A stretch of 38,583 nt of DNA, taken from positions 1-38,583 of the forward strand of contig NZ_APMH01000038.1 in assembly GCF_000359585.1 (NCBI RefSeq), in the 5' to 3' direction. This document shows, piece after piece, positions 5,410 through 29,083 of the stretch. Every line of letters begins with the position of its first letter. Within the stretch, counting starts at the first letter, position 1. Source of the DNA: Clostridium tyrobutyricum DSM 2637 = ATCC 25755 = JCM 11008. Its GTDB lineage: Bacteria; Bacillota; Clostridia; Clostridiales; Clostridiaceae. The notes under the pieces are model-generated. The model saw only the letters and a list, made by a program, of their open reading frames with translations. It made no database searches and was not told where the DNA came from. Both the position numbers and the translations under genes were made by a program.

Positions 5410-5622
5410 TTAGAATTTTTGTATACTTTTATTATATATAATGTATTGATAATTGCAATGGATAAAGAATGAACTTTTTATATGTAATGTTAATTTTGAA
5501 GTAATAAATTTACATCTGGCAATCTCACTTTTCATCTTACCATTATGATAAAGTTCCACTATTTGATTTTTAAATTCCGTTGTATAATTATGTCTCTTCT
5601 TTGTTTCCTTTTTTTCAGACAT
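5410..5622 (-). pseudogene. IS3-family transposase OrfA, N-terminal remnant
   Basis: From ATG 5622 (AGGGGA site 8 nt upstream) the first ~38 residues read MSEKKETKKRHNY, then TTEFKNQIVELYHNGK and MKSEIAR. This is the start of the helix-turn-helix in OrfA of IS3/IS150-type transposases. After that the similarity fades, and the reading frame ends after about 70 residues without the rest of OrfA or any OrfB. It therefore looks like a degenerate fragment. It lies directly beside the point where the recombinase gene loses its 5' end, so an IS insertion with later deletion is a plausible cause of that truncation. Confidence 0.65.
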
Positions 5623-5693
5623 GACCAATTTCCCCTTTTTTATAATTATTTTATTATATCATGTTCTTAAAAAAGTTGTTTTATTTATTGTAG

Positions 5694-6368
5694 CCTATCC
5701 ATAATACTGAACAACTTAATAAACTTTTAGATGCTATTAAAGATAAGACTATTTTCACACCTGTAATGTTAGCAGCTACCACAGGAATGCGACTTGGTGA
5801 GATATGCGGTCTTAAATGGGAAAACACTAATCTTGAGAATGGATTTATACAATTAGAGCACCAATTGCAGGAAGAAAATAAAGACCTAAAATTAGTACCG
5901 TTAAAAACACTTAGCAGCCAACGAAAAATTGTTTTGCTTGATTACACTATTGAAGAATTGAAAAAACTTAAATTGAAGCAGGAAGAGAATAAAAAATATT
6001 TAGGTGACAATTACCATGATGAAGACTTTGTGGTATGTCAAAGTAATGGATTGCCCTATCATCCTACATATATATCAAGGAACTACAGACGTATCCTAAA
6101 GGACAATAAATATAGGATTAATGTAAATGGTAAGGCTAAAAATGTAAGTCTATATGAGGCACTAAAAATACCATTGATAAGATTTCATGATCTACGCCAC
6201 ACTCATGCAACTTTCCTACTTTCACAGAATACAAATCCCAAAATCGTAAGTGAAAGACTTGGACATTCCAGTATAAAAACAACTTTAGATATTTACTCTC
6301 ATGTATTACCTGGTATGCAGGAGCACGCTATAGATAACTTAAATAAAAAGTTTCCACCAAAAGAGTGA
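5694..6368 (+). pseudogene. Tyrosine recombinase (phage/ICE-type integrase), 5'-truncated catalytic domain
   Basis: The frame is open from 5694, preceded by a TAG at 5691-5693; the first ATG is 5766. The text before that ATG (HNTEQLNKLLDAIKD) is typical integrase sequence joining core-binding and catalytic domains, so the gene has lost its N-terminal arm- and core-binding domains rather than starting at 5766. Numbered from ATG 5766, the catalytic set is complete: Arg9 (TGMRLGE), His141 and Arg144 (HDLRHTH), His167 (LGHSS) and Tyr177 (DIYSHV). There is no ribosome site. It ends 29 nt before the right att copy and points at the tRNA gene, the standard position for a tRNA-targeting integrase. 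Confidence 0.85.
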
Positions 6369-6396: not shown

Positions 6397-6500
6397 GTTG
6401 TTTTCCTCGGTTTTTTCATAAAAATAACGGTTGTAATTTCTACAACCGTTGATATGACTGGTGCTCCTAACAGGAGTCGAACCTGCGACCTCTTGATTAC
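6397..6500 (-). repeat. Right attachment-site copy (attR-like) within tRNA-Thr
   Basis: Counterpart of 3001-3105. It runs from the sequence after the integrase stop, through the terminator, to the anticodon loop of the intact tRNA. The integrated element has thus restored a full tRNA gene at this end. Confidence 0.85.
6426..6450 (-). terminator. Terminator of tRNA-Thr
   Basis: AACGGTTGTA / TACAACCGTT, perfect 10-bp stem with loop ATTTC. On the minus strand it is followed by ATTTTTATG. It begins 8 nt after the tRNA CCA end. Confidence 0.85.
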
Positions 6501-6534
6501 GAATCAATTGCTCTACCAGCTGAGCCATAGGAGC
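6459..6534 (-). tRNA. tRNA-Thr (anticodon CGT)
   Basis: 76 nt including an encoded CCA. Acceptor arms GCTCCTA/TAGGAGC, D arm GCTC/GAGC, anticodon loop TTCGTAA (CGT, decoding ACG), and T arm GCAGG-TTCGACT-CCTGT all fold as a normal cloverleaf. The first anticodon-stem pair (27-43) is an A-G mismatch. The 3' half is duplicated at 3001-3105 as the scar of element integration. Confidence 0.95.
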
Positions 6535-16756: not shown

Positions 16757-17017
16757 TTACCTACCTTTAATATCAATTAACTTATATCCTCCTGAATTTC
16801 TCAGGTATATATTTTTAAAAGAAATTTTTTCTTTTTGGAATAAAAACTTAACTTTGTCCAAATTTTCAACATCAAATTTTATACTTATACCACAACTTTT
16901 AGTTATTACTACTGGAGTAGGCATAACATCTATGGATATATTCTTATTTCTAAAAAAAGTTTCTCCTGCTATTGCATCATGGGTATTTTTAAATGTTATT
17001 ATATAATATCTATTCAT
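16757..17017 (-). CDS. DUF3343 family protein (putative Se/S-carrier-like)
   Basis: 86 residues; YYIITFKNTHDAIAGE at the start and VITKSCGISIKF in the middle are typical of DUF3343, which includes proteins annotated as putative Se/S carriers. Cys42 falls in the conserved loop. The biochemical role is unproven. Five nt separate it from mscS. Its only good ribosome site (GAAAGGGG, 17047-17054) lies 29 nt from ATG, with a perfect 20-nt palindrome between; see the structured-leader feature. Confidence 0.82.
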   Translation of the reverse strand: MNRYYIITFKNTHDAIAGETFFRNKNISIDVMPTPVVITKSCGISIKFDVENLDKVKFLFQKEKISFKNIYLRNSGGYKLIDIKGR

Positions 17018-17054
17018 ACTATAATTATAGTTTAATTAAACTATATCCCCTTTC
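17018..17054 (-). promoter_or_regulatory. Structured leader of the DUF3343 gene: SD, palindrome, start
   Basis: GAAAGGGG (17054-17047), one base, the palindrome TATAGTTTAATTAAACTATA (17045-17026), ATTATAGT, then ATG. Folding the palindrome (8-bp stem, AATT loop) would reduce SD-to-ATG spacing from 29 to 9 nt. No other ribosome site is visible. Confidence 0.5.
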
Positions 17055-17259
17055 TAAAATAATTACTAATATATGGTATACAGATATAATATATTAGTTT
17101 ATAATTAATATATATATAATATTGATGCATTTATTATACAATTTACATCAAATATATATATAGATGTACATTATTCATTATATATTATAATAACATAATT
17201 TAATATAATTTCATTACTTACATACAACTAAAAGATAAAGAAGGGGGTAACTCTAGAAA

Positions 17260-19876: not shown

Positions 19877-20731
19877 TTAAACTTTTAAAATATCTAATAT
19901 TCTCTGTAAATCATCTGGTGAATAATATTCTATTTCTATCTTTCCCTTATTTTTTTTATCATTTAATGTAACTTTAGTACCAAATAATTCTTTCAACTTT
20001 TCTTCTATATCAATATAATATGGATTACTTTTTATTTGTCTGTTTCCTATATCCTTTTTAGCATGTTTAATATCCTTAACAAGCTTTTCCACTTGACGTA
20101 CAGTTAAATCATTTTTTATTATACTTTTAGCCAATTCATATTGTGAATTTTTATCTTCCAAAGTTAAAAGTGTTCTTCCATGACCTTCTGTTATTAATCC
20201 ATTAATTAAATAATCTTGAACTCTACTATCCAAGTTTAATAATCTCATACAATTTGTTATTGCTGTCCTGGATTTACCTATTTTATTTGCCAATTCCTCC
20301 TGTTTGAGTTTGAAATCATTAATCAGTTTTTTATATGCAATGGCTTCTTCTATTGGATTTAAATCCTGTCTTTGTATATTTTCTATTAAAGAAATTTCAA
20401 GTATATCCCTATCTGATAAACTCATTACTATAGCAGGCACTTCTTTCAATCCTGCTAATCTAGCTGCTCTCCATCTTCTTTCACCTGCAACTATTATATA
20501 TTTATCTTTTTCTCTGTTTAATATAAGTGGTTGTATTATGCCGTGTTCTTTTATAGATTGAGAAAGTTGTACAATCTTACCCTCATCAAAATTTTTCCTA
20601 GGTTGTTCTTCATTAGCACTTATAGACTCTATATTAATTTTTTTAACAGTAGTTTCAGTATCACTATTATTTAAAATATCATCAGGTATTAGTGCTCCTA
20701 ATCCCCTGCCTAACCCATATTTTTTATTCAA
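19877..20731 (-). CDS. parB: Chromosome-partitioning protein ParB (Spo0J)
   Basis: 284 residues beginning MNKKYGLGRGLGALIP, the ParA-stimulating N-terminus of Spo0J-type ParB. ENIQRQDLNPIEEA and AGERRWRAARLAG form the CTP-binding clamp domain, followed by a helix-turn-helix (KQEELANKIGKSRTAITN) that reads parS and a C-terminal dimer domain. It slides from parS, recruits SMC and works with ParA. The start is TTG 20729-20731. No ribosome site is next to it, but AAAGGGGG lies 55 nt upstream beyond a 9-bp hairpin; see the leader feature. It follows parA by 114 nt. Confidence 0.96.
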   Translation of the reverse strand: MNKKYGLGRGLGALIPDDILNNSDTETTVKKINIESISANEEQPRKNFDEGKIVQLSQSIKEHGIIQPLILNREKDKYIIVAGERRWRAARLAGLKEVPAIVMSLSDRDILEISLIENIQRQDLNPIEEAIAYKKLINDFKLKQEELANKIGKSRTAITNCMRLLNLDSRVQDYLINGLITEGHGRTLLTLEDKNSQYELAKSIIKNDLTVRQVEKLVKDIKHAKKDIGNRQIKSNPYYIDIEEKLKELFGTKVTLNDKKNKGKIEIEYYSPDDLQRILDILKV

Positions 20732-20794
20732 AACATATTTACTGCTGCCTAAAATACAGATAAGATGTTATATCCTACAGCAGTAACCCCCTTT
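20732..20794 (-). promoter_or_regulatory. Structured leader of parB: SD, hairpin, TTG
   Basis: AAAGGGGG (20794-20787) is followed directly by TTACTGCTG (20786-20778), a 30-nt loop, CAGCAGTAA (20747-20739), ATATGTT and the TTG start. Looping out the 9-bp hairpin gives an SD-to-start spacing of 7 nt. There is no start codon suitably placed after the SD for a leader peptide, and no T run to suggest a terminator. Confidence 0.55.
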
Positions 20795-20845
20795 CTTTAT
20801 AATTCTTTAATTCCCTAATTTTAATTTACAAATATTCTATGTACA

Positions 20846-21625
20846 TTAATTGATCAATTTACATTTTTGTCTCTTTAAAAACTCCTCTGTTAAATTATCA
20901 TAAGCTTTAGCTCCTCTGCACTTATCATCATAAAGTGCTATAGGTAATCCAAAGCTTGGTGCCTCAGCTAATCTTATATTACGTGGTATTGTAGTTGTAT
21001 AAACTTTATCTTTAAAATATTTTTTTACCTCTGATGCTACTTCATTAGATAGTCTTGTCCTTCCATCATACATACTCATAACTACTCCCTCAACATCTAA
21101 ATCAGGATTTAAAGATCTTTTTACTAGTTGTATAGTATTTACTAGCTGACCAACTCCCTCTAAAGCGTAAAATTCACATTGTATAGGAATAAGAACGCTA
21201 TTTGAACAAGAAAGTGCATTAATAGTTAGAATACCTAATGATGGAGGACAATCTATAAATACAAAATCAAAGTCTTGCTTCATACTTTTTATCTTATCTT
21301 TTAATATACTTTCTCTATTGTTTACATTAATTAACTCAACTTCTGCTCCGGCTAATTCCATAGTAGATGGAATCATATAAAAATTATCTACTAATTCAGA
21401 TTTTTTCATTACTTGATCAATATCTGAATCTGAACACAATATGTCATATATAGATTTATCTATACTTGACTTATCAAATCCCAAACCACTTGTAGTATTA
21501 CCCTGAGGATCAATATCAATATTTAAAACTTTATATCCTTTAACAGCTAAATAAACGCTGAGATTAATACTTGTAGTTGTTTTTCCAACTCCACCTTTTT
21601 GATTAAATATAGAAATTATTTTCAT
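20846..21625 (-). CDS. parA: Chromosome-partitioning ATPase ParA (Soj)
   Basis: 259 residues from ATG 21625, which has AAGGTGG eight nt upstream; GTG codons at 21637 and 21634 are part of that site, so an earlier start is unlikely. The deviant Walker A KGGVGKTT (residues 10-17), DIDPQGNTTSGLG and FIDCPPSLGILTINAL are typical of Soj. The ATPase binds DNA when dimeric, is stimulated by ParB, and in Bacillus also regulates DnaA. It is followed by parB and preceded by a parS within a long palindrome. Confidence 0.97.
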   Translation of the reverse strand: MKIISIFNQKGGVGKTTTSINLSVYLAVKGYKVLNIDIDPQGNTTSGLGFDKSSIDKSIYDILCSDSDIDQVMKKSELVDNFYMIPSTMELAGAEVELINVNNRESILKDKIKSMKQDFDFVFIDCPPSLGILTINALSCSNSVLIPIQCEFYALEGVGQLVNTIQLVKRSLNPDLDVEGVVMSMYDGRTRLSNEVASEVKKYFKDKVYTTTIPRNIRLAEAPSFGLPIALYDDKCRGAKAYDNLTEEFLKRQKCKLIN

Positions 21626-28664: not shown

Positions 28665-28686
28665 AAAGGCCACAAAAGCGGCCTTT
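28665..28686 (-). terminator. Hairpin between rpmH and rnpA (attenuator or partial terminator)
   Basis: AAAGGCC (28665-28671) and GGCCTTT (28680-28686), 7-bp stem, 8-nt loop, then TTTTT-like sequence on the minus strand (GGCCTTTTTCTGC). Its first arm overlaps the rpmH stop codon. It could lower rnpA expression relative to rpmH. Confidence 0.65.
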
Positions 28687-28819
28687 ATGCTGATAATCTT
28701 TTTCTACCTTTTCTTCTTCTTCTCTTAATAACGTTTCTACCAGACAAAGTTCTCATTCTTTTTCTAAAACCATGTTCTCTTTTTCTTTGTTTCTTTTTTG
28801 GTTGATATGTCATCCACAT
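28685..28819 (-). CDS. rpmH: 50S ribosomal protein L34
   Basis: 44 residues, [17 protein letters not shown] then [12 protein letters not shown] and a basic C-terminus ending KRLSA: a complete L34, too short for many gene finders. ATG 28819 matches the usual clostridial MWMTYQP start; an internal ATG at 28813 is also possible. No adequate ribosome site lies next to it. AAGGGAGG is 87 nt away at 28907-28914, with a stem-loop between. First gene of rpmH-rnpA-yidD-yidC-jag, diverging from dnaA. Confidence 0.96.
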
Positions 28820-28914
28820 AATAATCTAACTACTACTCTAATAATATATATATAATAAATGTAGTTTATTTATACATTATTATATTTTTTATTATATAGT
28901 AGTTTGCCTCCCTT
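28820..28914 (-). promoter_or_regulatory. Structured leader of rpmH: SD, large stem-loop, start
   Basis: AAGGGAGG (28914-28907), CA, AACTACTA (28904-28897), a 61-nt segment with further internal pairing (AATGTA/TACATT), TAGTAGTT (28835-28828), AGATTATT, ATG. Looping out gives 10 nt between SD and start. No start codon follows the SD at normal distance. Only a weak GAG is near ATG. Confidence 0.55.
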
Positions 28915-29054
28915 CTATACTTTAAATTTCTAGTTTTTATTTATAATCAATAAATACCTACAGTTTTTAGATTTATCGAACTCTAAAAATTAAGACATTA
29001 AATATTGTACTACTAGTCAATATATCTTTATCAATTTTAAAGTTTTACTATTAA

Positions 29055-29083
29055 ATTATATATTCACTGTACTACAATGTCAA
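29055..29083 (-). promoter_or_regulatory. Consensus promoter of the rpmH operon
   Basis: Minus strand TTGACA (29083-29078), exactly 17 bp, TATAAT (29060-29055): a perfect sigma-A match. Predicted start near 29048, giving a ~230-nt leader to rpmH. Confidence 0.85.

Follow-up and report, generated by a model that had tools for sequence, protein, structure and literature searches.

How is translation of rpmH started in Clostridium tyrobutyricum, if the only strong Shine-Dalgarno (SD) sequence of its leader lies 87 nt from the start codon? The gene is found, together with dnaA, rnpA, parB and their neighbours, in the window analysed here, i.e., the whole stretch of 38,583 nt from contig NZ_APMH01000038.1. 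A sequence-only reading of this DNA had suggested that a looped-out stem brings both elements together. Judging from the comparison of genomes, rpmH and other genes scattered over the chromosomes of the genus most probably (about 85%) hold split ribosome binding sites, working by the mechanism of genes 38 and 25 of phage T4.

The rpmH leader

The leader comprises the following elements, all on the minus strand:

29055..29083, minus strand: predicted promoter, with TTGACA (29083-29078), 17 nt and TATAAT (29060-29055), matching exactly in 13 of 13 genus genomes
28907..28916, minus strand: distal extended SD sequence AGAAGGGAGG, with the same 10 letters in the four species that hold the hairpin
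28896..28904, minus strand: 5' arm of the stem, AACTACTAT, pairing with 28836-28828
28837..28895, minus strand: loop of 59 nt, AT-rich and with internal pairing; the loops of the sister species have 12, 24 and 25 nt
28828..28836, minus strand: 3' arm of the stem, GTAGTAGTT, with a helix probability of 0.95
28685..28819, minus strand: rpmH, ribosomal protein L34, 44 aa, ATG start at 28819-28817 (Pfam Ribosomal_L34, E 9.2e-21)

The stem consists of 9 bp, including one G-U pair; 2 nt separate AGAAGGGAGG from AACTACTAT, and 8 nt lie between the 3' arm and the ATG. Closing the stem shortens the distance from GGAGG to ATG from 87 nt to 10 nt, and the arms, the 8 nt and the folded spacing are as the sequence-only reading had described them. 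Its claim that a strong SD lies far from the start and none beside it is borne out by the pairing energies with the anti-SD GGATCACCTCCTTTC (read in loci of genome G006 only), which amount to -15.7 kcal/mol for the distal AGAAGGGAGG vs. -2.8 kcal/mol for the best match beside the ATG. Dinucleotide shuffling of the spacer yields an equally stable stem in the same frame 4 times in 2000, and the predicted ensemble, in which the helix dominates, leaves the SD unpaired with a probability of 0.83 and the start with one of 0.50.

Two other functions were considered for this structure. A terminator or attenuator was rejected, as no T-run is visible by eye after the 3' arm. A known Rfam leader was rejected as well: at the gathering score the window yielded a single tRNA, and none of the 10 matches obtained from five loci with E up to 10 falls on the leaders.

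The rpmH leader among relatives

The rpmH gene is present in all 13 genomes of the genus. Four of them (G000, the species of the window, together with G001, G010, and G011) hold the hairpin layout, consisting of AGAAGGGAGG, a stem, 8-10 nt and the ATG; the remaining nine carry an ordinary SD (GGAG, 11-13 nt before the ATG), and by eye no such stem was found in their rpmH leaders. Among the 206 genomes of the family, 202 have an rpmH match, and the 17 leaders read outside the genus all exhibit an adjacent SD. A dnaA-based search for named relatives, which kept 80 mostly distant loci, contributed five more rpmH leaders, each with an adjacent SD-like stretch.

The four species form one side of a branch of the ParB tree (support 100/99) and have long end branches in it (0.27-0.48). 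SD and stem are kept among them while the loop ranges from 12 to 59 nt. Position 5 of the stem is A-U in G000, G-C in G001 and G010, and G-U in G011; variation extends to positions 8 and 9, and the three sister species share the 5' arm AACTGCT, with matching 3' arms. The check proposed along with the sequence-only reading, a search for compensatory changes in the arms of relatives next to a conserved SD outside the stem, was run and gave this result.

In all 13 genomes the exact TTGACA-N17-TATAAT lies upstream of the SD position. The objection that a transcript starting inside the spacer would lack the SD is met by this predicted promoter, but not settled by it: a promoter within the spacer was rejected on these grounds, a second start being still conceivable. 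The -10 box is located inside a block, ATATATAATTTAATAGT (window 29040-29083 region), that is identical in the 13 genomes and recurs in part in several leaders of the family, which is more than a promoter needs.

The same layout at other genes

Each of the 13 genomes of the genus exhibits the split layout at the SEC-C gene (PRK05590). Outside the genus, 17 SEC-C leaders were fetched and 16 read (L312 was left out), and all 16 hold a plain adjacent SD. The pattern GAARGGRGG-N0-5-ACTGCT was searched in the 13 genus genomes, with the reversed pattern as control, and gave 18 matches vs. none. Seventeen separate the SD of a gene from its start codon and can pair with a 3' arm there: SEC-C (seven), the gene of a protein starting with VRKKPSIFSK or a variant (four), rpmH (three), and spoIIP, an FeFe-hydrogenase-like gene and parB (one each). 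The layout does not fit the remaining match, in G005. The VRKKPSIFSK gene has its split site in G000, G001, G010, and G011. The gene (L298, L286, L296, and L300) starts with GTG; its product, a putative membrane protein with a hydrophobic stretch, found only a sub-threshold DUF6377 match in Pfam.

Two further sites within the window, parB and a DUF3343-type gene, had been named as sharing the layout:

20787..20796, minus strand: distal SD of parB, AGAAAGGGGG, -16.0 kcal/mol vs. -2.7 beside the start
20739..20786, minus strand: parB hairpin, TTACTGCTGT (20786-20777) and GCAGCAGTAA (20748-20739), with the TTG start at 20731
17047..17055, minus strand: distal SD of the DUF3343-type gene (Se_S_carrier by Pfam), AGAAAGGGG
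17026..17045, minus strand: hairpin of this gene, TATAGTTT and AAACTATA, loop AATT, with the ATG at 17017

The layout is indeed present at both, with some qualifications. The parB stem (10 bp, -11.2 kcal/mol) is matched by 2 of 2000 shuffles, and it is restricted to the species of the window: in the remaining 12 genomes of the genus the bridging stem is absent and the SD of parB overlaps the end of the preceding frame, by likeness parA. Ahead of parB, the species of the window is also the only one with a gap (window 20731-20846) that contains a hairpin site. The DUF3343 stem, as stable in 33 of 1000 shuffles, is by itself little above chance; at that position G001 forms another stem (57 of 1000), G011 a weaker one (48 or 120 of 1000, depending on the chosen start), and in G010 no stable stem was found at this gene.

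Elsewhere in the window, a frame of 200 aa (5766-6368, plus strand) resembles by eye the C-terminal part of a tyrosine integrase and adjoins a tRNA-Thr (cgt; 6459-6534, minus strand). Together with a short transposase-like frame at 5410-5628, they are perhaps the remnant of an integration site.

Samples of about 400 kb per genome, taken from five genomes (that of G000 including the window), were scanned for genes without an adjacent SD, gene starts being taken from open frames. With looser settings, 13 bridged cases were obtained in the five genomes. Those of G000 precede parB, the DUF3343 gene, a GntR-type gene and the VRKKPSIFSK gene, and one in G010 resembles a T-box in its motif; in G006 three cases compare with 3.46 in shuffles. 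Under tighter settings, with a stem of -4 kcal/mol or better, G000 has 394 genes, 78 of them without an adjacent SD; seven of these hold a distal SD and four are bridged, vs. a shuffled mean of 0.15. Two of the four are the parB and DUF3343 genes already named; without the window, two of five are bridged vs. 0.1 (1 of 200 shuffles as high). The other genomes gave 3 vs. 0.14 (G001), 4 vs. 1.45 (G006, reached by 7 of 200 shuffles), 1 vs. 0.13 (G010), and 1 vs. 0.14 (G011); the last two do not stand out clearly, being reached by 22 and 27 of 200 shuffles.

A covariance model built from 17 leaders, which carries their SD, start and ACTGCT bias, returned 43 matches in the genus at E <=1, of which those within the loci at hand and in 8 additional stretches were read. 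These added pyrG, encoding CTP synthase (G006 and G012), a small membrane protein (G001, G010, and G011), spoIIP and a SpoVAC-type gene (G000), and a DUF2229 protein (G001), while others are coding-like, weak or lack the layout (L353, L355, L363, L369, and L370). Due to the bias of the model, stems of other sequence were sought only within the five-genome samples. Candidate split sites were also seen in G006 before a NUDIX gene (L250 4720; GCTGCTT/AAGCAGT, 21 of 1000 shuffles) and before a DUF1779 gene (L258 10017). Among 24 further leaders put to the shuffle test, five escaped the text pattern and come without a chance value (malic enzyme, two MazG-type, LrgB, and DUF503).

Covariation, spacing and SD strength

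The 13 SEC-C leaders alone have 83.5% of their cells paired, two rows being one column off in the MAFFT alignment, and reach a covariation of 0.321 vs. 0.159 when shuffled, with none of 500 shuffles as high and 0.139 for the best slid version. A set of 17 chosen leaders, representing five gene families, is paired in 96.6% of its cells, and 12 cells have changed on both sides; the covariation of 0.382 exceeds that of shuffled alignments (0.262, 0 of 500 as high) and of slid versions (at most 0.083). This set omits seven of the 24 leaders (SEC-C from G000, G002, and G005, three rpmH leaders with longer loops, and parB) and keeps one misaligned row (spoIIP); a further alignment, A3, was dropped because its arms were shifted. 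As most leaders were found through the 5' arm, and the structure was drawn from the same sequences, pairing and arm conservation are favoured in these values.

The stems might also be inverted repeats arising by chance in AT-rich leaders. The stems at pyrG and DUF3343, which 25-120 of 1000 shuffles match and which are individually weak, agree with this explanation, which may apply to single cases. For the pattern as a whole it is hardly credible, and at rpmH and SEC-C a chance repeat is unlikely, given the presence of the SEC-C layout in 13 of 13 genomes with covariation, that of the rpmH stem in 4 of 4 hairpin species, and the reversed and shuffled controls. Across the 24 leaders, as good a stem is found in 0-29 of 2000 shuffles per leader, and the predicted helix probability is at least 0.70 in each; the predicted ensemble partly hides the SD or the start in several of them, with unpaired probabilities of 0.02 for the spoIIP start, 0.10 for the start of the VRKKPSIFSK gene in G000 and 0.26 for its SD in G001.

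The linear distance from SD to start in the 24 leaders is 25-87 nt, beyond the normal range, and the hairpin restores a near-normal one: the effective spacing is 7-14 nt, with a median of 10, in a stem search that allowed 0-7 nt before the stem and 3-13 nt after it. In 740 ordinary genes of the same samples the median is 8 nt (5-95%, 4-12 nt, measured within 2-20 nt), so that the split sites are 2 nt longer than usual. Together with the pairing kept among relatives, these leaders share a strong distal SD (-11.9 to -17.0 kcal/mol) without a strong one beside the start, where the best match ranges from +0.7 to -6.4 kcal/mol.

A leader peptide translated from the distal SD was ruled out, as no other start codon lies 3-12 nt after it in 23 of 24 leaders; the lone exception is a TTG in SEC-C of G002. 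The sequence-only reading, which had excluded such a peptide at rpmH, holds in this respect, with the reservation that the rpmH loop contains an ORF of three codons (ATG TAT AAA TAA), 29 nt past the SD.

The start codons could also be served by weak SD-like letters beside them or without any SD, the distal one stabilising the mRNA or loading the ribosome in the manner of a STAB-SD or standby site. Some 3' arms do hold a weak SD-like stretch at normal distance (AGCAGGA in SEC-C, -4.1 kcal/mol; -6.4 kcal/mol in G010), which implies that a little initiation might occur without the hairpin, and the adjacent match lies between -4 and -6.4 kcal/mol for 10 of the 24 leaders. However, such matches are weaker than -4 kcal/mol in the other 14, far below the distal SDs, and an adjacent SD is absent or very weak at parB and at rpmH of G000, G001, and G011 (three of the four rpmH hairpin leaders have adjacent matches of -2.8, -0.8, and -0.8 kcal/mol). 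This explanation, which leaves the retention of the stem and its bracketing of the spacer without a reason, is very improbable. The STAB-SD that stabilises the cry1Aa mRNA of Bacillus thuringiensis is likewise an SD-like sequence well upstream of the start, but a second SD adjoins the start codon there, while the adjacent matches of the Clostridium leaders are weak and a stem links the distal SD to the start.

A recurring arm

In the alignment of 17 leaders, the 5' arm stays ACTGCT, the 3' arm changing by way of G-U pairs (columns 19, 20, and 22). Most leaders with ACTGCT were found through that arm, but CTGCT also appears in leaders found without it, i.e., in the 5' arm region of 11 of 13 SEC-C orthologues, found by protein, and in the 5' arm of 5 of 12 matches of the first scan, the T-box one excluded. 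Pairing alone does not explain this recurrence.

These observations speak for a regulated switch, in which the hairpin acts as a sensor of temperature, a protein, or a small or antisense RNA (the sequence-only reading had mentioned temperature, a factor or a ribosomal protein as possible triggers); the folded state would be ON, and melting or binding would move the SD away and turn the gene OFF. This possibility, compatible with the split-site reading as an addition to it, is rather doubtful: the genes involved (those for L34, SEC-C, SpoIIP, the SpoVAC-type protein, CTP synthase, ParB, and the FeFe-hydrogenase-like protein) belong to no evident common pathway, the leaders searched gave no Rfam match, and by eye their loops have no common motif.

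Genes without relation to each other carry a nearly identical module, made of an extended SD and ACTGCT with 1-5 nt between them, which in rare cases is also seen in other genera. This could alternatively point to a small mobile or duplicating hairpin with a tendency to land between the SD and the start codon, where it would be tolerated as it folds out; the layout would then be a by-product. By eye, however, nothing is shared beyond the SD and the arms, and at the DUF3343, gntR, and malic enzyme genes this position is occupied by different stems. Moreover, the exact hairpin CTGCTACT..AGTAGCAG, with sites in 16 of the 206 family genomes vs. 6 for the reversed control, is a split site in only 1 of 16 cases and lies elsewhere in 15, hence it is no marker by itself. 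A mobile origin is considered improbable. A genus-wide search for a stem behind a loose GGG mostly returned sites without clear meaning, as well as many in the reversed control.

Beyond the genus, this module is rare. At E <=0.01 the covariance model matches 20 of 206 family genomes, 13 of which are those of the genus. The other 10 matches belong to 7 of the 193 non-genus genomes, with about 2 expected by chance at that E-value, and eight of them have the layout before an open frame (one of 74 aa, one of 93 aa). By Pfam these genes encode MazG-type, glycogen debranching, Ppx/GppA, AAA-type, LrgB, and DUF503 proteins and, by likeness, a second MazG-type protein and a second ATPase. In 391 genomes of the class, the model found no match outside the family.

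Comparison with known systems

According to a review on the subject (PMC3014915), RNA structure shortens the SD-AUG spacing in T4 gene 38 (22 to 5 nt) as well as in gene 25 (27 to 11 nt), and changes that destabilise it lower initiation; for gene 25 this has also been demonstrated by reporter and DMS probing, and its arrangement is conserved only in close T-even phages. The gene 25 stem-loop, cited as a precedent in the sequence-only reading, is in agreement with that source. The Clostridium sites resemble both T4 genes in having an SD too far from the start and an RNA structure in between. Unlike them, they are chromosomal, belong to several unrelated genes within one genus, and are predicted from genome comparison; their linear spacing reaches 87 nt and they often share the 5' arm ACTGCT. 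A literature search covering few subscription journals found no chromosomal split site, the proven cases that it turned up being the two T4 genes.

The extended SD of Staphylococcus aureus (PMC13009471) offers another parallel, with a long SD pairing and a spacing 2-3 nt longer than in E. coli. As a difference, neither a hairpin nor a stem-loop is mentioned in the main text of that paper.

Proposed mechanism and implications

The split layout of rpmH is a real observation and part of a larger pattern, for which genome comparison establishes layout, covariation, recurrence, spacing and the lack of a strong SD beside the start. In the mechanism proposed from it, the 30S subunit would bind the strong extended SD while the hairpin between SD and start stays folded and looped out. 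This would place the start codon at a nearly normal distance from the SD, some 10 nt away, allowing the 30S subunit to initiate. We infer that initiation requires the hairpin, present on the ribosome in its folded form; selection would act on the stem, leaving the loop free in length and sequence. Structure-dependent initiation, as the sequence-only reading had proposed for rpmH, appears to be the best reading of these comparisons.

Usual analyses of start sites can miss such sites, as illustrated by a 2018 study of transcript starts and translation efficiency in Clostridium ljungdahlii, where SDs were sought only within 25 nt upstream (PMC6203783). The conservation of the layout at housekeeping genes of a bacterial genus suggests that structure-dependent initiation may be a normal option on its chromosomes. 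More tentatively, the split site might constitute a distinct RNA element of the Clostridiaceae. Its stem, with the 5' arm ACUGCU following an extended SD, would be recognised by its sequence and would have arisen repeatedly, at genes without relation to each other; a trans-acting factor might read it, or it might dock on the 30S platform. If this were true, initiation at a whole set of genes could be tuned together.
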